In this document: positions 5,221 through 23,475 of the stretch, piece by piece
Numbering within the stretch: position 1 is the first letter of the stretch
Layout of the letters: each line of letters begins with the position of its first letter
Assembly: GCA_019359045.1 (NCBI GenBank)
Contig: JAHHIA010000005.1
Coordinates: 186,001-250,000, forward strand
Reading direction: 5' to 3'
DNA: 64,000 nt
Origin: Scytolyngbya sp. HA4215-MV1
GTDB taxonomy: Bacteria; Cyanobacteriota; Cyanobacteriia; Leptolyngbyales; Leptolyngbyaceae
Position numbers and translations under genes: made by a program
The notes under the pieces: model-generated
Told to the model about the DNA's origin: nothing
What the model saw: the letters and a program-made list of their open reading frames with translations, nothing else
Database searches by the model: none

Positions 5221-7410
5221 TCACAATCCCCACTTAAATGCAGTTGGATGATCTGCTGCATAACCAGCAACTTGCTGAGAAATTTGGGGATTATAGAGCC
5301 GCAGATAATTCCAATAATTCTCAAATACTGCTTTCACATAGCCTTTCGTCTCGTCATAGGGAATCGCTTCCACAAACTCATCCGGGTCCCGCACTCCTTT
5401 TTGCAACCAATCTGCCACCGCACCGGGTCCCGCATTGTAGCTGGCAACTGCTAACAACGAGTTGTTGCTATATTCCTGATGCGTATGATCCAGATACCAG
5501 GTGCCCAGTTTGATATTGTCCTCCGGATCATTGAGCTTGTATTGCTTCAGGTTAATTTTGCTGGCAATTTCGGCAGCAGTATCAGGCATCACTTGCATCA
5601 GACCTGTTGCTCCCACTGCCGATCGAATTCCCGGCATAAAGCGAGACTCTTGCCGAATCAAGGCAGTCACCAAAATCGGGTTAAGTTGCCGCTGTTGCGA
5701 CCAGGTTTCGATCGGATTTAAGAACGGGAAGGGGTAAAGTGCATACCAATACGACAATTGCCGCTTCAGCGCTTGATACTCCGTGCGCTCTTGGGGAATT
5801 TCACGCTGGCTTAAAAAGTCCAGCATAAAAATGCCATCCAAATTATCCCCAATTCCCAACCGCATCAACCCATCCGTATACTGCTCTGCCACCGTGGGCT
5901 GCACCCGGTTTTGAAATTCTGTTTGCCAGAGCCGCCAGGCATCACGCCCTTGCCCCAACTTGTAGAGTTCTTGCAAAGCGGCCGATCCCACGGGCAATGG
6001 CTGACGGATCACCGCTCGATTCACCTGCGGGTTCAGTTGCCGCAGATTGTGGAAATCCCCCACTTCCCAGCCCAGGTAAACTGCCGATCGCCAGGCGTAG
6101 TAAGAGTTGGGATATTGACGAATCACCTGCGTATAAGCTTTGCGGGCATCGTTTTCTTGCTGGAGTTGTTGTGACCACTTGCCCACCCAAAATCCTGCTT
6201 CTGCTGCCAGGGGGCTATTGGGGTTGGCTGTGGGAATCGGTTGCGCCCATTGCACTGCCGTCTTGAGATCGCCCGATTTGGCCTTTTGCCAGGCAACATT
6301 CCAGCGCAATTCGGCAGTGGCATCCGCATCAGCATACTTTTGCAGCAACTGTTGACGAATTTTTGCTGCTGTTTTCTGACTACTTTGTCCATCCAGTAGT
6401 TTGGCTTTTGCCAACAACGCTTCGGCTGCCCGATCGGGGAAATGCTGAACGATTTGGTTGAGATAGCCGATCGCGGTGTTAGGTTCTGCCAGACGAGATA
6501 GGCGAATCAGCGCCAGGGAAGTTTCTCTCGCTTTAGGAAATTCTTTTACCATGCGCTGGTATGCCTCATAGGCACCCCCTCGCTCACCCAGTTGCAAGCC
6601 CCGTGCCATTCGGTAAGCATTCAAAGGCGTACGAGGCGCATGGGCATAGGCAGCACCAGCTTTGCCATAGTCTTGCTTTTCCCAATAGCCAAAAGCGATC
6701 GCTGCCCAATCTTGTGGGGTTAATTGTTGGGCATAATTGCTGGTCAAGCGATCGAGCACAGCCAGATAGTTGGTTTCGTAGAGACCCGATTTTGCCACGA
6801 TCAAAAGCAAGGGCAACTGTTTCGGGTTTTTCTTTAAGCGGGTCTGGGCAATGTCCACCGCACGAGGATGGGTCGGAAACTGGGCGATCGCCTGATCCCA
6901 ATACTGCGGCAGATTGCGTCCCAACGCATACAAGGCTTCAGCGGCGGCTGGATCTTGAGGGTAGCGACTCAACACTTCTTTCCAGCTTGCCTCTGCTTTG
7001 GCTGAATCCCCAGCGATTTCATAGGCGGTTGCCCGTTTAACCAAAATGTAGGGGGCGAGAGCGGGATAGTCTTTTTCTAGATCTTTGAGCCAGGTGAGCG
7101 CATGCCGTCCCTGTGCCTGAAGGATCAGGTCGCTAGCCAGTAGATACCGCGCCCGGAAGCGATCGGGAGAACCCAGACTGTTGGCGATCGTTTCCAGTGT
7201 CACCGCCCGTTGTTCTGGCTCAAGCTCTAACACTGCTGCCAGACTATCCTGACTACCCTCTGATTTCAATGAATTCAAGGCATTTTGCCCACCTGGCACC
7301 CCCATCTGGAACAGGTTGCGCAAACCAAAAGGAGAGAAGGCGGCGATCGTGACCACACATAGCCCTGTCCCCACTGCGATCGAAACCTGGGTTGCTCTTC
7401 GCTTCAGCAT
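5221..7410 (-). CDS. Soluble lytic murein transglycosylase (Slt70-type) with TPR superhelix
   Basis: Protein of 729 residues. An N-terminal signal anchor (residues ~8-30) is followed by a long alpha-helical solenoid with TPR-like repeats (about 60-560) and a C-terminal SLT/GH23 lysozyme-like domain (about 575-700). The domain shows ALIRQESRF with the catalytic Glu, SAVGATGLMQVMP and VASYNAGPGAV, which are the three conserved SLT motifs. The enzyme cleaves the MurNAc-GlcNAc bond of peptidoglycan to form 1,6-anhydro ends in the periplasm. GGAGAAAGG lies just ahead of the ATG. The gene converges on the aspartic protease gene with no gap. Confidence 0.92.
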   Translation of the reverse strand: MLKRRATQVSIAVGTGLCVVTIAAFSPFGLRNLFQMGVPGGQNALNSLKSEGSQDSLAAVLELEPEQRAVTLETIANSLGSPDRFRARYLLASDLILQAQGRHALTWLKDLEKDYPALAPYILVKRATAYEIAGDSAKAEASWKEVLSRYPQDPAAAEALYALGRNLPQYWDQAIAQFPTHPRAVDIAQTRLKKNPKQLPLLLIVAKSGLYETNYLAVLDRLTSNYAQQLTPQDWAAIAFGYWEKQDYGKAGAAYAHAPRTPLNAYRMARGLQLGERGGAYEAYQRMVKEFPKARETSLALIRLSRLAEPNTAIGYLNQIVQHFPDRAAEALLAKAKLLDGQSSQKTAAKIRQQLLQKYADADATAELRWNVAWQKAKSGDLKTAVQWAQPIPTANPNSPLAAEAGFWVGKWSQQLQQENDARKAYTQVIRQYPNSYYAWRSAVYLGWEVGDFHNLRQLNPQVNRAVIRQPLPVGSAALQELYKLGQGRDAWRLWQTEFQNRVQPTVAEQYTDGLMRLGIGDNLDGIFMLDFLSQREIPQERTEYQALKRQLSYWYALYPFPFLNPIETWSQQRQLNPILVTALIRQESRFMPGIRSAVGATGLMQVMPDTAAEIASKINLKQYKLNDPEDNIKLGTWYLDHTHQEYSNNSLLAVASYNAGPGAVADWLQKGVRDPDEFVEAIPYDETKGYVKAVFENYWNYLRLYNPQISQQVAGYAADHPTAFKWGL

Positions 7411-7913
7411 GACCTTTCTCCGCCAAGATGGAACTGGAACATGGGACTCTAGACGTTGAACTTTAGCGTTGGCATCTAGACTTCAGACATTGAACACAAA
7501 CCCTGAAACTTTAGACTCTAGACTGTGGACTTTGGATTCTACAATCAAAATCAACCCATAGCTTCATTCTTTTCTAAAGGGTTCACAGGCCATCAGTGAA
7601 TTATCTACCAGTAGATAATTCACTGCATCTATCGTTGCAATGGTTGCAAGCTCATCTCTCAGGTTCGCTTCCAACATTGCTTCACAGTAATGAAAGACTG
7701 CGGTCGTTGCAGCCTGTTCCATTATGCGGTGTTCTTTTTATTTCGTGTCTTTCTTTTTGCCGAAGCCTGAGAGACATTGCAGCAAATCGGATTCAGACAA
7801 TCCAGAATTTCCTCGTCACCTCATCCCCCCCCAATCACTCCCCTCAGAAACCGCCAGGCTTTGCAAGTTACAAAGAATATGGCAAACTAAAACCTTTGTT
7901 CTTCAGGAAACTT
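7411..7913. other. Intergenic stretch with low-complexity repeats and a long palindrome
   Basis: 7441-7545 is a run of degenerate CTAGAC / CTTTAGAC / GGACTTTGGA words, a low-complexity pattern common between genes in this kind of genome. 7594-7625 is the palindrome listed separately. An open frame runs through 7596-7913 into the acetyltransferase gene but does not look like protein. Confidence 0.5.
7594..7625. promoter_or_regulatory. Near-perfect 32-bp palindrome (15-bp arms)
   Basis: CAGTGAATTATCTAC (7594-7608) is followed by CA and then its exact reverse complement (7611-7625). Fifteen perfect base pairs around a 2-nt centre suit a homodimeric regulator's operator or a cruciform. With a 2-nt loop it is a poor RNA hairpin, and no T-run follows. 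It lies between the divergent transglycosylase gene (start 7410) and the acetyltransferase gene (start about 7914), so it could control either. The binding protein is unknown. Confidence 0.55.
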
Positions 7914-8360
7914 GTGACTCACCTGATTGTCAGACTGGCTGAAATGCCGCAAGAATTTCCTCTAGTGAGATCGGTGCGGCAGGCTGTGTTCCAGATCGAA
8001 CAAGGGGTTGCTCCAGAGCTGGAATTTGATGGACGAGATGAGCAGTCCCAGCATCTTCTGGCATTTTGGGATAACCGCCCTGTCGGCACGACCCGCATCC
8101 GAACTCTGGAAAATCAGTCTGCCAAAGTTGAGCGAGTTGCCGTTTTGTTAGAAGCCAGAGGATTGGGGATTGGCAAAGCACTTATGGCAAAAGCACTGGA
8201 GCTTTTGAGTAAGCAAAAGGTGCCTGAAATCCAGATCCATGCCCAAATGCAAGTGCGGGATTTTTATAAAAAGCTCGGTTTTACTCCAGAGGGTGAGGTT
8301 TTTTCAGAAGCGGGGATTCCCCATGTGAAGATGAAAAAGCAACTCATCCCGCTGGATTGA
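7914..8360 (+). CDS. GNAT N-acetyltransferase, YjcF/ElaA-like
   Basis: Protein of 148 residues from GTG 7914, preceded by AGGAAA at 7905-7910. The sequence begins V-T-H-L-I-V-R-L-A-E and continues with SVRQAVFQIEQG, the N-terminal pattern of the YjcF-like GNAT group. The acetyl-CoA loop is ARGLGIGKALM, and NxxAxxFYxxxGF appears as MQVRDFYKKLGF. A partner substrate in this group is not established. In-frame codons extend upstream to 7596, but that part is low-complexity intergenic sequence, and the 148-residue form matches the family length. Confidence 0.8.
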   Translation: MTHLIVRLAEMPQEFPLVRSVRQAVFQIEQGVAPELEFDGRDEQSQHLLAFWDNRPVGTTRIRTLENQSAKVERVAVLLEARGLGIGKALMAKALELLSKQKVPEIQIHAQMQVRDFYKKLGFTPEGEVFSEAGIPHVKMKKQLIPLD

Positions 8361-8421
8361 TGTCGTTTTGGATTTTGCGTCAAAGCTCTACGTGAGCAAA
8401 GTAAACGTTGGGTTGAATTGA

Positions 8422-11085
8422 GTGATTCGTCAAGGTCAACAAGAATGGATTAAAGGGTTGCCGAAACTGGGCTTGATCTGGCTATTCGTGGCGATCGGCG
8501 ATCGCCTCTGGTTCACGTTGGATCATGGAATTCCTGCCTGGGATCAAGCAGACTATTTGACTGGCACCCTCAACTACTGGCAAGCCCTGCAACATCCCCA
8601 GTGGTTTTCCACCGAATGGTGGACTCGGTTGTGGCTACTCTCTTCCAAAATTCCGCCGCTCACCTACCTCGTCACTACGCCAGTCTTCAATTGCATCGGC
8701 AGAGGCATGGATCAGGCAACCGTGATCAACCTGGGGTTTAGTGCCATTCTATTGGGTTCAGTTTACAGTCTGGGCACCTGCTTGTTTACTGCCCAAGTGG
8801 GGCTATGGGCAGCGGGGCTATGTGTTTTATTCCCCTCGCTCTATGGGGTTCGGCTGGATTTTCTGCTGGACTATCCCCTCACGGCAATGGTAATGCTCAG
8901 TTTTTGCTGCCTGACGATATGGCGCAACACCGTTCAAGTTGAGCGTCTGGCTCGGCATCCTGCCTGGTTGCCTGATCGCCTCCCTTTGCCAAAACTGTTG
9001 CTTGCACTGCTGCCCTCTCGGTCTTCGTCCATCTGGGCGATCGCCTTTGGGATCTCTCTGGGATTGGCATTTTTAACCAAACAGACAGCACTATTTTTCT
9101 TGTTGATCCCGATGCTTTGGTTTGCAGGTGAGATGCTCTGGTGGTGTGCCTGGAACCAGATTGGGTTACTGCTAGGTGCAGGGCTGCTCTCAACCGTGAT
9201 CTGGTTGCCCTGGTATCGCATCAATTGGTTGCTAATGCTCACCGCGAGTAAACGGGCAGTGGTAGATTCAGCGATCGCCGAAGGCGATCCCCCGCTGAAT
9301 AGCCTGAATGCCTGGATTTTTTATTTAAAGGATCTTCCCCAGGAGATTTCTGGCTTGTTGTTGCTGGTGTCACTGGTGGGGTGGCTGTTCTATTGGCGAC
9401 GCAGCCGCATTTTGCTGTGGGACTCGATCGCCGAAGCCCTGCCCCAACCCAAACACTATCGCCAAACGCTGTATCGCCAGATGGGGCGATCGCTGAGTTG
9501 GCTGGCAATCTTTTGGGTGGGAGCCTACTTGCTCTGTTCGCTCAACATCAACAAAGATCCGCGCTATGTTATGCCCTATTTGCCGATCGTGGCAGTGTTT
9601 CTAGCCTATGGTTTGTTACTGCTGCCGGGACGGGGGATTCGCTGGGGCACCGTGGGGGTTGCCACCCTATTGATGGGACTAAATCTGTTGCCAGTTCAAG
9701 CTTGGGCGACGCCGTTTCTGCAAAATCAACGTGCGCGTCATCCATTTCTATCGGGGCAAGGATTTCCCCATGCCCAGGTGATTGCAGAGATGATTGAAAC
9801 CGAACCATTCTTGCGATCGACCTTAGGCGTGTTGCCTTCCACCGCTGAGATCAATCAACATAACCTGAATTTTTATGGGGCATTACGAGACTTTCAGGTC
9901 TATGGCAGACAGGTCGGCACCCGTTTGTCCCAGGTGAAACAAGATACCAACGCCCTCTCCTGGTTTGTTACCAAATCGGGCAATCAGGGATCAATCCGCC
10001 ATCCGGAAGCGCTTCAGGCGATCGTGAAACAGGTCGAAGACGAAGGAAATTTTATCCTGCAAAGAAGTTGGGCATTGCCAGATTTTAGCCAGCTCAAGTT
10101 ATTTCATCGACGAGTGCCCTGGGTTGAAGTCGAACCACTGCTGGGGCAACCGTCGCTAGCCCAAATCAAACTCGATCAAATTACCCTGGCGCAGCAGGCG
10201 CCACCCGGTCAGCCGATCGCCATTACCTATCAGTGGTCGGGTCCCTGGCAACAGTTGCGAACAGGGATTGTTTTACTGACCTGGCAAGCGATGGAGCGCA
10301 ACCAACCGTCAACCCCCTTAGCCTCTAAACCTCGAACCTCTCGTCCCTTCTGGCTACACGATCATGGCATTGGCATGGGAAATCTGGAGAGTGGTGCAGC
10401 GAATGTTGAACCCTCGTCTACCTTTCAAGTGATTGAGCGCACTGCCATGGTGCCGCCTGCCACAATCGCGCCAGGGACTTACACCCTGACGGCAACTTAC
10501 CTGAATCGAGCCACTGGTGAAACCTACGCGATCGCGACACCGCCCATTCGTCTGCAAATCACCCCAACTGCGCCAGTGGTCACCGCCCCCGATCCCGATT
10601 GGGTTACTCAATTTCGTATGGCGGCACGGGCATTGCCTCAGGGCATAACAGGATTAGCTGCGTTATTTGACACCATTGGGCGCATTAATCAGTACGATCC
10701 CATTCAGGACTATCTGGTGCAGGCAAAGCAATCGCTGAGTTATCGCTGGCAACAAGACCCCCAGAATCGCGAGTTTGCTTATGCTGTAGCGCTCACGGAG
10801 GTGTTGCGCCGACAAATCAATCCGGCGATCGGCACACTGCAACGAGTCATCCAACTGGACGCCCAAAACCCTAATGCCTATGCCTATCTTGCCTTTGTCC
10901 ATCTCTATGCTTTTCATCCTCAAGCGGCTCAAGCTGCCCTCAAATCTGCCCTGGCAATCGACCCCCGATCGCCCGAACTGCACTTGTTAAGCGGCGTGGC
11001 TGACCTGATGCAAGGTCATTTACCCCAGGCGTGGCAACAGGTGGAAGCGTACCAAAAGTTGCAGAAAGTGAGGAAAAAGGGGTAA
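8422..11085 (+). CDS. GT39/PMT-like membrane glycosyltransferase with C-terminal TPRs
   Basis: Protein of 887 residues starting at GTG 8422. The N-terminal half has about ten hydrophobic segments. It opens with an Asp-containing loop, DHGIPAWDQADY, after the first segment, as in Dolichyl-P-mannose-type (PMT/ArnT-like, GT-C fold) enzymes. Another conserved stretch is SLNINKDPRYVMPYLP. A soluble beta-rich region (about 560-720) follows, then a helical TPR region (AVALTEVLRRQINPAIGTL, then PNAYAYLAFVHLY) to the C-terminus. It probably moves a sugar from a lipid carrier onto an exported acceptor, but donor and acceptor are unknown. The C-terminal TPR fusion is unusual for the family core. Confidence 0.75.
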   Translation: MIRQGQQEWIKGLPKLGLIWLFVAIGDRLWFTLDHGIPAWDQADYLTGTLNYWQALQHPQWFSTEWWTRLWLLSSKIPPLTYLVTTPVFNCIGRGMDQATVINLGFSAILLGSVYSLGTCLFTAQVGLWAAGLCVLFPSLYGVRLDFLLDYPLTAMVMLSFCCLTIWRNTVQVERLARHPAWLPDRLPLPKLLLALLPSRSSSIWAIAFGISLGLAFLTKQTALFFLLIPMLWFAGEMLWWCAWNQIGLLLGAGLLSTVIWLPWYRINWLLMLTASKRAVVDSAIAEGDPPLNSLNAWIFYLKDLPQEISGLLLLVSLVGWLFYWRRSRILLWDSIAEALPQPKHYRQTLYRQMGRSLSWLAIFWVGAYLLCSLNINKDPRYVMPYLPIVAVFLAYGLLLLPGRGIRWGTVGVATLLMGLNLLPVQAWATPFLQNQRARHPFLSGQGFPHAQVIAEMIETEPFLRSTLGVLPSTAEINQHNLNFYGALRDFQVYGRQVGTRLSQVKQDTNALSWFVTKSGNQGSIRHPEALQAIVKQVEDEGNFILQRSWALPDFSQLKLFHRRVPWVEVEPLLGQPSLAQIKLDQITLAQQAPPGQPIAITYQWSGPWQQLRTGIVLLTWQAMERNQPSTPLASKPRTSRPFWLHDHGIGMGNLESGAANVEPSSTFQVIERTAMVPPATIAPGTYTLTATYLNRATGETYAIATPPIRLQITPTAPVVTAPDPDWVTQFRMAARALPQGITGLAALFDTIGRINQYDPIQDYLVQAKQSLSYRWQQDPQNREFAYAVALTEVLRRQINPAIGTLQRVIQLDAQNPNAYAYLAFVHLYAFHPQAAQAALKSALAIDPRSPELHLLSGVADLMQGHLPQAWQQVEAYQKLQKVRKKG

Positions 11086-17905: not shown

Positions 17906-19000
17906 TTAATCCTCGATCGCATGTAAGTCAAGTTTGACGACGATAGTGGTTCCGGTTCCGGTTCCGCTGTGAATTGTTAGCGTCCCGTGATGCAGTTCCA
18001 CCAAGCGCTTGATTAAGGCTAAGCCCAAACCTAAGCCTTTGCGCTCGTAGATTTCTCGGTTGAACTGGATATATTCTCCTAGATTCGCAATTTGGTCGAG
18101 GCTAAGTCCTTTGCCCCGATCTCGAATCGTGAGGCAAAAATAGGGCCCGATCGGCTCACTAATCACCCAAATGGGGGTTCCAAATTCAGAATTTTTGAGC
18201 GCGTTCTCTAGCAATTCTTGAACAATGCGTCTAAGATAGACTTTGCAAATCGAAGCAGAACTTTCTTGAATTTCTAACTGGATATCCGCATATCGGTTGA
18301 ATTCATGTGCTTTTTCTTCTATCCAGCCTTGGATATAGGAAGCGGTTGCGTAGGTAATATCTTTCCTCAGCTCTTGAAGTTGTTGAGGGTCTGCTGACAA
18401 GGTTTCCATTTCTGCATGAAGCAAAAAGTTTTGGCACATTTTGTCCAATTGGGTGGCAGCTGTGTAGGTGCTTTTCAGCATTTCCGACACCTCTGTACCC
18501 GAAAGCGTATCGTAGTGGTTCATGAGCAAATTCAGACTACCCAAAATAATACACAAAGGTGTATTGATCTCATGGGGCAGATAAGCATTGATGTTGCTCC
18601 GCAGATTACTGAGCTTGAGCTGTTCAATCCGATGGCGGTTGAGGGCAATTTGGATAGTGGTATTCAGTTCAGAAGCCTGGAAGGGTTTCAGAATATAGCC
18701 AAAGGGTTCACTAATTTTTGCTCGTTCTAGCGTATCTGTATCGGCATGGGCAGTCAGGTAGACTACCGGGATGTGGAATTCTTTGTGAATCTGGTTAGCG
18801 GTCTCGATGCCATCTTTCGTGCCCGGCATCACGATATCCATTAAGACTACGTCTGGTGGGGTTTCTAAGATTTTCTGAAGTGCCGCCTCACCATCCTGCA
18901 CAATGGCGACCACCTCATAGCCGAGATCTCGAAGAATGTCCTCAATTTCGCGAGCGATTAGAATTTCATCTTCTGCAATTAAAACCTTGGTGGGTATCAT
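17906..19000 (-). CDS. Response regulator receiver-histidine kinase hybrid (REC-HisKA-HATPase)
   Basis: Protein of 364 residues. The receiver (1-125) has the acidic pair in LIAEDE, the phospho-acceptor Asp in VVLMDIVMPG and the Lys in YILKPF. A linker and a HisKA-like dimerisation helix follow, with His in LPHEINTPL. The C-terminal HATPase has an N-box (ELLENALKNSE), G1 (RDRGKGL) and G2 (GLGLGLALIKRL). The protein can therefore accept a phosphoryl group and act as a kinase. It lies downstream of the cyanobacteriochrome kinase on the same strand, 337 nt apart, which suggests it is that kinase's target. No DNA-binding output is present. Confidence 0.88.
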   Translation of the reverse strand: MIPTKVLIAEDEILIAREIEDILRDLGYEVVAIVQDGEAALQKILETPPDVVLMDIVMPGTKDGIETANQIHKEFHIPVVYLTAHADTDTLERAKISEPFGYILKPFQASELNTTIQIALNRHRIEQLKLSNLRSNINAYLPHEINTPLCIILGSLNLLMNHYDTLSGTEVSEMLKSTYTAATQLDKMCQNFLLHAEMETLSADPQQLQELRKDITYATASYIQGWIEEKAHEFNRYADIQLEIQESSASICKVYLRRIVQELLENALKNSEFGTPIWVISEPIGPYFCLTIRDRGKGLSLDQIANLGEYIQFNREIYERKGLGLGLALIKRLVELHHGTLTIHSGTGTGTTIVVKLDLHAIED

Positions 19001-19337: not shown

Positions 19338-22300
19338 TTAAAACCGCTGACGGTAGTTGAGGGCGGAGAAGGTGAGTTCAAAGCGCGTGCCATGCGTGCG
19401 ATCGAGGGCGAGATGTCCCCGTAGTTGCAAGGCTAAATCGTAGGCAATTTTCAGACCCAGCGATTTTAGATGCTTCAGGTCAACGGTTTCAGCAATCCCA
19501 ACTCCATTGTCTTGAATACTCAATACATAGTAGGGGGAGGCGAGAATACCCGATCTTTCAGTTATCAAAACACTCTCTTGAGAGTTATACGAACTATCGG
19601 GCGGAGATGCAGCCAAAGCAGGTAATTTTTGCTCCAGTGTAATATAAATTTCTCCGTGGGGCTGATGAGGAAACGCATGTTTAATGGCATTGGTGATCAG
19701 TTCATTCAGCAGCAGTCCACAGGGGATGGCAGTTTCCAAATTCAAGGCGATGGGTTGGAGGCGATAAGTTAAATGAATGCGGGTAGAACGATTGCTATGC
19801 GCTGACAGAATGCTGTTACCTAAGCGCTGAATATATTCAGAAAAGTTAAGTTGACCCAAGTCGCCGGATTGGTGCAAGGTTTCGTGAATCAGTGCCATTG
19901 CCTGAAGGCGGCTACGGGTATCGGCTAAGACCGTAGAAACGGTTGGGTGTTGAATTGCTTTGATTTGCAACCAAAGCATGGAAGAGATGACTTGCAGGTT
20001 GTTTTTGACCCGATGGTGGATCTCTTTGAGTAAGATTTCTTTTTGAGCTAACTGATGTTCCAATTGCTTGTAGAGGTTGGCTTTTTGGGTCGCAATGCCA
20101 ATCTGGAACCCCAATTGCTTAAAGAGATCGATTTCCGCTGGTTGCCACTGGTGGGTAGTGGTGCAGTGATGAGCAATTAACACACCCCAAATTTTATCTG
20201 CTTGCAAAATTCCTACAACTAAATTGGCGCGAACCTGGAGTTGTGCCAAAAAATCCTGATGACAGGCTGCGATCTCATCAGTTTGGGTGTCCGCTAGCGT
20301 AGTTGTATAGCCGCATCGATACCTTTCAGCCCAGGCTTGCCCAAAGCAGGGGTCTTGGATGGTATTGCCTACTAGGGATAGGGCAGGTTGAGCGACTGAC
20401 TCTAGCTCAATCATCACGTTATAGCTGGCATCGAAGTGGCAAACCAGAATCCGATCGCAGTGCAAAAAGTGCCGAACCTGCTCCAAACAGGGCATTAAGA
20501 CTTCATCTAACTGAACCGATTGATTAATCGTTTGAGCGATCGTTGCCAATAGGTGATCAGCTTCTGCTTGACGTTGCAGATGCAACTCGGTTTGTTTGCG
20601 ATCGCTGATATCCGTAACTCGCACCAGTGCCATCTGTTGACCTGCGACTTCAATCCGCTTTGAAGCTAGACTGCCCCAAAAGTTGCGTCCCTGACAGGTG
20701 GCATATTCAATTTCTTGGCTCCAGATCCCTTGAGCTTCAATTCTGCTGCGTGCCTCTGCCAGCGCCTCTGCTAAAAAGGGTTCTTTGTGCAGCGTAAAGC
20801 CCGGAATGCCAATCAGGTCAGATTTACTGTCTGCCTCGAAGAGTTCTATGGCTCGTTGGTTGCAGTCTAAAATTTTGGAGGAATCTGTCTCAACCAGAAA
20901 AATGGCATCTGCCGATTCTTGAAACACCGCTTCAAACAAGTCTCGACTCTGCCGGAAGGCAGTAGTTCTTTCTTGAACTTGCTGCTCTAACTGTTGGTTG
21001 AGTTGATGGACCTGCTGATAGAGATGGGCTTGTTGAATGGCGATCGCCAGTTGATCTACAAACCGCCGCGCCAACTGAATTTCATCATGGGTAAATGGCT
21101 TAGTGGGCGAGATTTTTTGGCTCCCCAAGCATCCCCAAACCTTGCCATCCACCTCCAGCGGAACAATCAGCCAGGCACCGGGGATCTGTTGAGCTACTTG
21201 CTGGTTGATGGGATCATCTAGGGTTTTCACATCCTCAATGACCACAATTTCCCCTTGTCTTAAGCGCTTTGCGATAGGATTATCCTGGTCAGGAATCTCT
21301 ATTACTGAGGGCAAAAGGGTGGTAGAATCTGCCAGATAGTTTTCGCTACGCACCCAAACTTGTCGCTCTGGCACATACTGATAAATCGTGGCGCTATCAA
21401 GTTGAAGCAGTTCAGCAAATTCGCGCGTAGCAGTGGAGAAGATAGTTGCCAGATCCAGCGAGTTGCGGATTGTTTGCACTACCCGGTTAAAAGCCTGTTC
21501 CTGAGCGGCTTGTTGGTGCAGTGCTGATTCCGCTGCTTTGAGCGCAGTGATATCACTAAAGCTAGAAATGACGGACCGAACTTCGCCTTCAGCGTCCAAT
21601 TGGGGAATCGAATTGATCAGTGCCCAGATGCGATCGCCATAGGCAGGACGATACATGCCCACTACGTGGTTGCGAATCGGTTGTCGGGTCACGATCGCCA
21701 GGCTAATGGGACATTGTTCCTTGGGTAAGGGTGACCCATCCTCTCGAATGTCATACCACTCAATATCCTGAGACTTTTTGCCCAGTAATTCGCTGGCACT
21801 TCGCCCCAGCAGTTCCACTGCCATCTGGTTCAGCATCAAGATTTCTGTATCCGGAGCAACGATGAAGATCCCTACCGCCACATCTTGCACCAGCGATCGC
21901 AGCCGTTCCTCACTGTCTCGCAAAGCGGTTTCTGTCTGTTTTAGTTCGGTAATATTAGTGCTCGTGCCAATTAGGCGATAAATTTGATTTTGTTCATTTC
22001 TGAGAGGCGTCAGATTAGTAATCCACCAGAGATCTTGCCCACCAAAGCAGATTTTTTCAACATGGGTGGTACTGCTACCCGTCTCAACACAGCTTTGATA
22101 ATTTCGCCGCACCAAGGCAGCATCTTTGGGCGGCATCACGTCTTCTGGCGCTTTACCCAACAAATCTTCGTTTGCAATTCCGGTCAGGCGAGAGTGGGTA
22201 GGATTGAGTCCTGCAAAACGAAAATCACCCTCTGCCAATACATCCATGACAAAAATGCTTTCCCCAGTGCCTTCATAAATACTCCGAAGAAAGGTTTCTT

Positions 22301-23420
22301 TTTCTTGTAACGCTAGTTCCGCTTGTTTCAGGTCAGTCAGGTTGCGAGTGTTGACCACAACTCCAGTAATTGCGCCATCGGCTTCCAGGTAAGGCGAGTA
22401 AGTGACACTAAGAAACTGGCGACCCAAATGGGGGTAGTCAAACCATTCTTCGTAGCTGATGGTTTCACCTGCCAAGCAGCGATCGACCCGGGATTTGATG
22501 ATGTTGGCAAACACTTCAGCCCCAAACAGTTCGGCAATGGTATGTCCCACAATTTCGTGGCGAGATTTGTTCGATCGTTCGAGATAGGTCTGGTTCACTA
22601 TTTGATAGGTGTAGTGGCGATCGAGCAAGGCAATGCCATCTGAAGTGGAAGACACGATCCCTTCGTACTTACGCAAGGCAGATTCGATCCGTTGGCGAGC
22701 GTCAATGTTCGCAGCGGTGCCCATCATGCGGATGGGTTTGCCATCTGCGTCGTAGAACGTCTGTCCCGTGCTCTCAATCCAGCGAATGCTCCCATCCGGC
22801 AACACGCCGCGATACTGATGTTGATAGCTACATCCACTCTCAATGGATTGCTGCATTGCCTGGATTAAGGCTGCGCGATCGTCTGGATGCACGGCGCTAT
22901 AAAAAGTTTCCGGGTTTTCATCGAAACTGCCTGGTGCTAGCCCGAACAATCGCTCAGTTTCAGGCGACCAGATGGCTTTGCCTGTCAAAAAATCGCAATC
23001 CCAAATGCCCATTTGGGCAGCTTGCAAAGCCATTTTGAGCCGTTGTTCGCTTTCCTGGAGTTCGAGATTTAGTAAGGCCTGAATTTTGCGCTGTGCTCGT
23101 GCCAGTCGCAGACTGGGTAAGTTGGCAAGTATCGCAATTAGAGAAAAAAAGATTAATTCGATGCCGTCATTTATTTTTTCAATCTGAAGCGTGTTGAGGG
23201 GCGGGATAACCAGAAAGTCGATTGCCAACATTGATAGAATCACAGCAAGCCAGCCTGCATGAGGGCTGAACCCACCACTGAGCAAGATCGCGGCAAAAAA
23301 CGGCAAATAATCCCAGTGACCCAAAATGGGGTGGAAAAGCTTCGTGAGGATGCCGGCAATAACAACCAGCAAAAGGCTGATGAAATAGGGCTTTGGGCGA
23401 AAATTCAATCTACTGAGCAT
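19338..23420 (-). CDS. Multi-PAS/GAF sensor histidine kinase (HisKA_2 type) with a DXCF-type cyanobacteriochrome GAF
   Basis: Protein of 1360 residues from ATG 23420. Residues ~10-100 form about four membrane segments, resembling a KdpD-type (DUF4118) anchor. Four PAS domains follow (~125-640), then a GAF (~655-800), another PAS (~835-950), a second GAF (~960-1115) and a HisKA_2/HATPase kinase with phospho-His about 1136 (EIHHRVKNNLQVISS). The second GAF has DPCF with Cys1025 and a CH pair with Cys1053/His1054, followed by RANLVV and WGVLIAHHC. These are the DXCF and canonical bilin-binding cysteines and the C-terminal signature of cyanobacteriochromes. It probably senses light through a covalently bound phycobilin. 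The downstream hybrid regulator is a likely partner. Confidence 0.9.
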   Translation of the reverse strand: MLSRLNFRPKPYFISLLLVVIAGILTKLFHPILGHWDYLPFFAAILLSGGFSPHAGWLAVILSMLAIDFLVIPPLNTLQIEKINDGIELIFFSLIAILANLPSLRLARAQRKIQALLNLELQESEQRLKMALQAAQMGIWDCDFLTGKAIWSPETERLFGLAPGSFDENPETFYSAVHPDDRAALIQAMQQSIESGCSYQHQYRGVLPDGSIRWIESTGQTFYDADGKPIRMMGTAANIDARQRIESALRKYEGIVSSTSDGIALLDRHYTYQIVNQTYLERSNKSRHEIVGHTIAELFGAEVFANIIKSRVDRCLAGETISYEEWFDYPHLGRQFLSVTYSPYLEADGAITGVVVNTRNLTDLKQAELALQEKETFLRSIYEGTGESIFVMDVLAEGDFRFAGLNPTHSRLTGIANEDLLGKAPEDVMPPKDAALVRRNYQSCVETGSSTTHVEKICFGGQDLWWITNLTPLRNEQNQIYRLIGTSTNITELKQTETALRDSEERLRSLVQDVAVGIFIVAPDTEILMLNQMAVELLGRSASELLGKKSQDIEWYDIREDGSPLPKEQCPISLAIVTRQPIRNHVVGMYRPAYGDRIWALINSIPQLDAEGEVRSVISSFSDITALKAAESALHQQAAQEQAFNRVVQTIRNSLDLATIFSTATREFAELLQLDSATIYQYVPERQVWVRSENYLADSTTLLPSVIEIPDQDNPIAKRLRQGEIVVIEDVKTLDDPINQQVAQQIPGAWLIVPLEVDGKVWGCLGSQKISPTKPFTHDEIQLARRFVDQLAIAIQQAHLYQQVHQLNQQLEQQVQERTTAFRQSRDLFEAVFQESADAIFLVETDSSKILDCNQRAIELFEADSKSDLIGIPGFTLHKEPFLAEALAEARSRIEAQGIWSQEIEYATCQGRNFWGSLASKRIEVAGQQMALVRVTDISDRKQTELHLQRQAEADHLLATIAQTINQSVQLDEVLMPCLEQVRHFLHCDRILVCHFDASYNVMIELESVAQPALSLVGNTIQDPCFGQAWAERYRCGYTTTLADTQTDEIAACHQDFLAQLQVRANLVVGILQADKIWGVLIAHHCTTTHQWQPAEIDLFKQLGFQIGIATQKANLYKQLEHQLAQKEILLKEIHHRVKNNLQVISSMLWLQIKAIQHPTVSTVLADTRSRLQAMALIHETLHQSGDLGQLNFSEYIQRLGNSILSAHSNRSTRIHLTYRLQPIALNLETAIPCGLLLNELITNAIKHAFPHQPHGEIYITLEQKLPALAASPPDSSYNSQESVLITERSGILASPYYVLSIQDNGVGIAETVDLKHLKSLGLKIAYDLALQLRGHLALDRTHGTRFELTFSALNYRQRF

Positions 23421-23475
23421 GGCAGGCAAAGGGATTGATTGCAGGGTAAGTGAATGCCATCGACAAACAGAACCA

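Follow-up and report, generated by a model that had tools for sequence, protein, structure and literature searches.

The window analysed here (the whole stretch of 64,000 nucleotides from Scytolyngbya sp. HA4215-MV1) encodes a multi-PAS histidine kinase whose second GAF domain (GAF2) is, by homology, a cyanobacteriochrome, with a HisKA_2 module as its output and a REC-kinase encoded beside it. We consider it very probable that GAF2 acts as a DXCF cyanobacteriochrome that gates the transfer of phosphate by the HisKA_2 kinase to the REC-kinase. Bilin attachment, the photocycle and its colours, light control of the kinase and the direction of that control, and the physiological role are predictions. 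The features of the locus are:

19338..23420, minus strand: multi-PAS, GAF and cyanobacteriochrome HisKA_2 histidine kinase; 1360 aa from the ATG at 23420
23085..23387, minus strand: DUF4118 membrane-anchor region (approximate); Pfam 34.3 bits, cut-off 28.4 bits
21036..21455, minus strand: GAF1, lacking a bilin cysteine; residues ~656-795
20046..20549, minus strand: GAF2, DXCF-type cyanobacteriochrome domain by homology, clade and predicted fold; residues 958-1125
20346..20348, minus strand: Cys1025, second (DXCF) cysteine, equivalent to TePixJ C494
20262..20264, minus strand: Cys1053, predicted canonical bilin-attaching cysteine, equivalent to TePixJ C522, followed by His1054
19800..20024, minus strand: HisKA_2 domain (Pfam) with predicted phospho-acceptor His1136
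19341..19715, minus strand: HATPase_c domain (Pfam, approximate)
17906..19000, minus strand: REC-HisKA-HATPase_c kinase, predicted phosphotransfer partner, 337 bp downstream of the HisKA_2 kinase

A longer reading frame (19338-23429) is available for the kinase, with a TTG start three codons upstream of the first ATG (23420). The Pfam domains comprise, from the N-terminus, the DUF4118 membrane region (15-115), four PAS domains, GAF1 (659-798), a further PAS (from 831), GAF2 (about 974-1113), and HisKA_2 (1136-1210) with HATPase_c; these positions are numbered from the TTG and are lowered by 3 in the ATG numbering, which is used for the motif residues. The HisKA_2 domain scored 87.1 bits (cut-off 22.3 bits) and is accompanied by HATPase_c, hence the proposed HisKA_2 output, rather than standard HisKA, is real. 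No PHY domain was identified in the kinase and HisKA_2 comes directly after GAF2, which places GAF2 outside a PAS-GAF-PHY module. The PAS domains were judged by eye not to be LOV domains, as the NCRFLQ-type motif is absent. No Rfam families and no plasmid match were found for the region.

Within GAF2, the DXCF motif (D1023-P-C1025-F1026) lies 28 residues ahead of the canonical Cys1053-His1054 pair, followed by ANLVV from residue 1065 and WGVLIAHHC from residue 1078, all exactly where the sequence-only reading had located them. The same 28-residue spacing of DPCF and CH is found in the reference DXCF cyanobacteriochrome, the GAF domain of Thermosynechococcus PixJ (TePixJ; PDB 3vv4, 4fof, 6p58), and GAF2 aligns with TePixJ (3vv4; ~32-36% identity, E 9.5e-26; phmmer against PDB sequences) with no gap through both cysteines. 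Cys1053 thus falls on the bilin-attachment position C522 of TePixJ and not beside it, and a match of this kind goes beyond a motif arising by chance. The other matches in this search were to many cyanobacteriochromes, to phytochromes, and to fluorescent proteins derived from them. GAF2 is identical to TePixJ at D492, C494, F495, W499, C522, H523 and N535, and differs at H498 (A1029), Q526 (F1057) and R507 (Y1038). Beyond the roles cited here, those of the TePixJ residues belong to established DXCF chemistry. PMC6955287 places W499 and H498 at the B-ring propionate of TePixJ and D492, Q526 and N535 along the pocket wall close to the bilin as it moves; it reports R507 in a crystal contact only. 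GAF1 provides an internal contrast, with neither cysteine and with D and I at the equivalents of C494 and C522. TePixJ itself is a methyl-accepting chemotaxis protein, in contrast to the HisKA_2 kinase that carries GAF2.

The AlphaFold model of GAF2, built from 40 homologous GAF domains, had a mean pLDDT of 94.2 and a pTM of 0.89. Its best structural matches were bilin-binding cyanobacteriochromes and phytochromes (Foldseek, 6oap E 1.2e-18, 4fof E 2e-14), with VIA Z 20-24 against cyanobacteriochrome structures. The solved GAF nearest to GAF2 is that of a dual-sensor histidine kinase (6oap, 6oaq, 6ob8; phmmer E 1.9e-39; ~40% identity in Foldseek), which shares the canonical CH and the role as a kinase sensor; unlike GAF2, it has Tyr at the second-cysteine position and is not of the dual-Cys type. 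Relatives were taken from whole-genome searches, as a scan of the genome contigs with GAF2 alone gave one locus (Elainella). In the tree, GAF2 joins dual-Cys relatives outside the red/green clade. Its own clade is supported and has seven members, drawn from three families and several genera; both cysteines are retained in all seven, at 50-64% identity to GAF2, which argues that the function is retained. TePixJ, the sole DXCF reference, branches on its own, without a resolved sister, and is not placed beside the GAF2 clade; with this one reference, the tree does not discriminate the nearest characterised DXCF lineage. The proposal of a DXCF cyanobacteriochrome is supported by the concurring sequence, clade and predicted-fold tests.

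The Scytolyngbya genome encodes PcyA as its only bilin reductase, and therefore the pigment available to GAF2 is phycocyanobilin. Teal-DXCF and red/green domains owe their twisted photoproducts to Phe residues in beta-2 and helix-4 (PMC5240096). At these trapped-twist positions, GAF2 has Ile1004 and Leu1061, comparable to the Val/Leu of TePixJ and different from the Phe/Phe of the red/green references; since the Phe pair is missing as in TePixJ, a blue/green photocycle is favoured over a teal one. The blue/green-type assignment is our best prediction, in agreement with the earlier proposal, and blue/orange, with phycocyanobilin retained, is the main alternative.

In the predicted scheme, GAF2 would attach phycocyanobilin via Cys1053 and would probably isomerise it, at least partly, to phycoviolobilin. 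In darkness, a second thioether from Cys1025 to C10 would give the blue-absorbing state, and blue light would flip the D-ring and break the Cys1025 bond to give the green-absorbing state. From GAF2, the change would be carried by the helix to the HisKA_2-HATPase module next to it, where phosphorylation of His1136 would be altered; phosphate would then pass to the receiver of the downstream REC-HisKA kinase, whose own kinase activity would relay the signal onward.

Two departures from this scheme concern GAF2 itself. The domain may be a DXCF cyanobacteriochrome that retains phycocyanobilin or reaches another photoproduct, i.e. a blue/orange, blue/teal or other pair. We regard this as possible, but as the less likely outcome: photocycles differ among the known DXCF domains, among which a teal-DXCF type has been described (PMC5240096), second-Cys and isomerisation chemistry are separable (PMC11284453), and the GAF2 pocket departs from that of TePixJ at A1029 and F1057; the teal variant, however, is argued against by I1004 and L1061 in place of the trapped-twist Phe pair. 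None of the sequence features examined separates phycoviolobilin from phycocyanobilin in GAF2. Far less probable, and in our view very improbable, is a degenerate GAF2 that has lost bilin binding and serves as a structural or ligand-binding GAF. Such domains would have precedent in GAF1 of the same protein, which lacks the cysteines, and in some kinases of the lineage, which showed a CL-type GAF only; GAF2, however, keeps both cysteines, the Asp, His1054, W1030 and N1066, and the cysteines persist throughout its clade.

About 15 of 96 GAF matches in the Scytolyngbya genome carry both DXC[F/L/I/M] and C[H/Y], as counted among the GAFs similar enough to be recovered with the GAF2 query; the claim that most GAFs are without the CH pair is true. 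GAF2 is not rare or exceptional in its genome, and is an ordinary, well-supported member of a known family. Three other DXCF GAFs of this genome have Phe/Phe at the trapped-twist positions (contig C31, 683905-684444, L020; 440363-440896, L024; 652015-652530, L025) and, unlike GAF2, are predicted to give teal photoproducts.

The neighbouring gene (17906-19000, minus strand) encodes, as described in the sequence-only reading, a REC-kinase hybrid, i.e. an N-terminal receiver fused to a kinase (Response_reg-HisKA-HATPase_c; Pfam). The catalytic residues are intact in both proteins, namely H1136, both asparagines and D1304 in the HisKA_2 kinase, and the REC Asp/Thr/Lys and the HisKA His in the REC-kinase. 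His1136 is invariant in all 16 HisKA_2 kinases compared, and all 16 REC-kinases compared keep the catalytic residues of both receiver and kinase, save for one Thr-to-Ser change. A total of six HisKA_2 domains are found in the Scytolyngbya genome, five of which are immediately followed by a receiver protein, and these five receiver proteins are all REC(-PAS)-HisKA-HATPase kinases (contigs C31, C7, C23, C29 and C16). The sensors ahead of these five HisKA_2 domains vary, comprising PAS arrays, an ethylene-receptor-like domain, a Ser/Thr-kinase-AAA-GAF protein and the GAF2 cyanobacteriochrome. Among 15 relatives of the C-terminal half of the kinase in other genomes, from several genera and families, 14 have a same-strand REC-kinase immediately downstream, and in the fifteenth (L061) it lies ~2 kb away. 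More generally, 77 of 104 HisKA_2 domains in 42 genomes of the same order have a same-strand, REC-containing match to the REC-kinase within 1.5 kb downstream, compared to ~0.05 expected as computed from the listed matches; 33 of the 77 align over the entire REC-kinase, and the remainder mainly over the receiver region. The partnership of kinase and REC-kinase is better supported than the earlier reading could know, because it is conserved in relatives, and the pairing of HisKA_2 with a REC-kinase is apparently general, with swappable sensors.

Alternatively, the REC-kinase might not be the target at all, with the HisKA_2 kinase signalling to a response regulator encoded elsewhere and the two genes kept together through shared expression only. 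The 337 bp gap between the two genes, and the identity of just 32-36% between the REC-kinase of the window and most neighbours of the related kinases, would fit such an arrangement. We nevertheless judge it unlikely: same-strand adjacency is kept across genera and families and among HisKA_2 kinases generally, and the receiver neighbours within the genome are uniformly REC(-PAS)-HisKA kinases. The intergenic 337 bp gave a single promoter-like match and a single weak match to a terminator, about the number expected by chance (not significant against shuffled sequences).

Phosphotransfer to the REC-kinase thus remains the preferred reading, and a two-tier relay, in which the HisKA_2 kinase would phosphorylate the receiver of a second kinase, is the most economical interpretation of gene order and residue conservation. 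Whether this represents a recurrent cyanobacterial cascade, i.e. a HisKA_2 kinase phosphorylating a REC that controls another kinase, with sensors that can be exchanged and with the present locus as its blue/green-light version, we consider evenly balanced. If so, light would control a kinase-to-kinase relay, not a transcription factor. For light-sensing HWE/HisKA_2 kinases, outputs that lack a DNA-binding domain are common (PMC10359499). One of these, LOV-HK EL346, resembles the kinase described here in having a HisKA_2-type transmitter under a photosensor (predicted here), but it is alphaproteobacterial and has a LOV-flavin input (PMC10359499), in contrast to the predicted bilin GAF, five PAS domains and predicted membrane anchor of the Scytolyngbya kinase. 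Further counterparts are cyanobacterial pairs of a cyanobacteriochrome-HisKA_2 kinase and an adjacent REC-histidine kinase (L057, L058, L059, L072 and L076), in which the GAF is 52-64% identical to GAF2 and has both cysteines; several have CY in place of the CH of GAF2, and L059 and L072 differ by an extra GAF before the kinase module. An incomplete literature search found no account of the HisKA_2/REC-kinase pairing; the one paper found that combines a cyanobacteriochrome with HisKA_2 apparently deals with engineered two-component signalling. If correct, our reading would provide a well-defined blue/green sensor on an understudied kinase type together with its likely partner, and a light-to-phosphotransfer pathway testable in vitro with two proteins. 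The succession of HisKA_2 and a REC-containing gene, the majority case in this cyanobacterial order, is a genomic handle on the signalling layout.

Two of the pairs have sensor regions of other kinds. One consists of an ETR1_N (ethylene-receptor-like)-PAS-HisKA_2 kinase and a REC-PAS-HisKA kinase (L079, 2332-4590 and 4464-6176, both plus strand), and the other of a 1756-aa Ser/Thr kinase-AAA-GAF-HisKA_2 fusion (L080, 3389-8656, minus strand) and a REC-PAS-HisKA kinase.

A distinct group of GAF domains was also observed, in which the canonical Cys is mostly followed by Leu (CL) and VRAN is replaced by VKSK or similar, with the DXCF cysteine retained in some. Within the same kinase lineage, this CL-type GAF stands in for, or joins, the cyanobacteriochrome GAF; it is located between the latter and HisKA_2 in L072, L059 and L074, and is also found in L060, L073 and L075 and, in the Scytolyngbya genome itself, in L022 and L028. 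The matches for L060, L073 and L075 included no cyanobacteriochrome GAF of the typical CH/CY kind, hence some members of the lineage may do without light input.

In the relative L061 (genome G013, 5914-9402, minus strand), the frame is broken at a red/green-type GAF, which leaves two open reading frames, and the match L042 (genome G003, contig C12, 29245-30849) contains an in-frame TAA; these represent either sequencing errors or decaying copies. Furthermore, a DXCF-type GAF in a 1525-aa protein (contig C14 of the Scytolyngbya genome, ~30.0-30.5 kb; L023, 1273-1809; L083) has an insertion of ~19 residues right after DPC, DPCLAKNYLRFSRSQSVTYDHAFVEDY, which would put a new loop at the chromophore cysteine.
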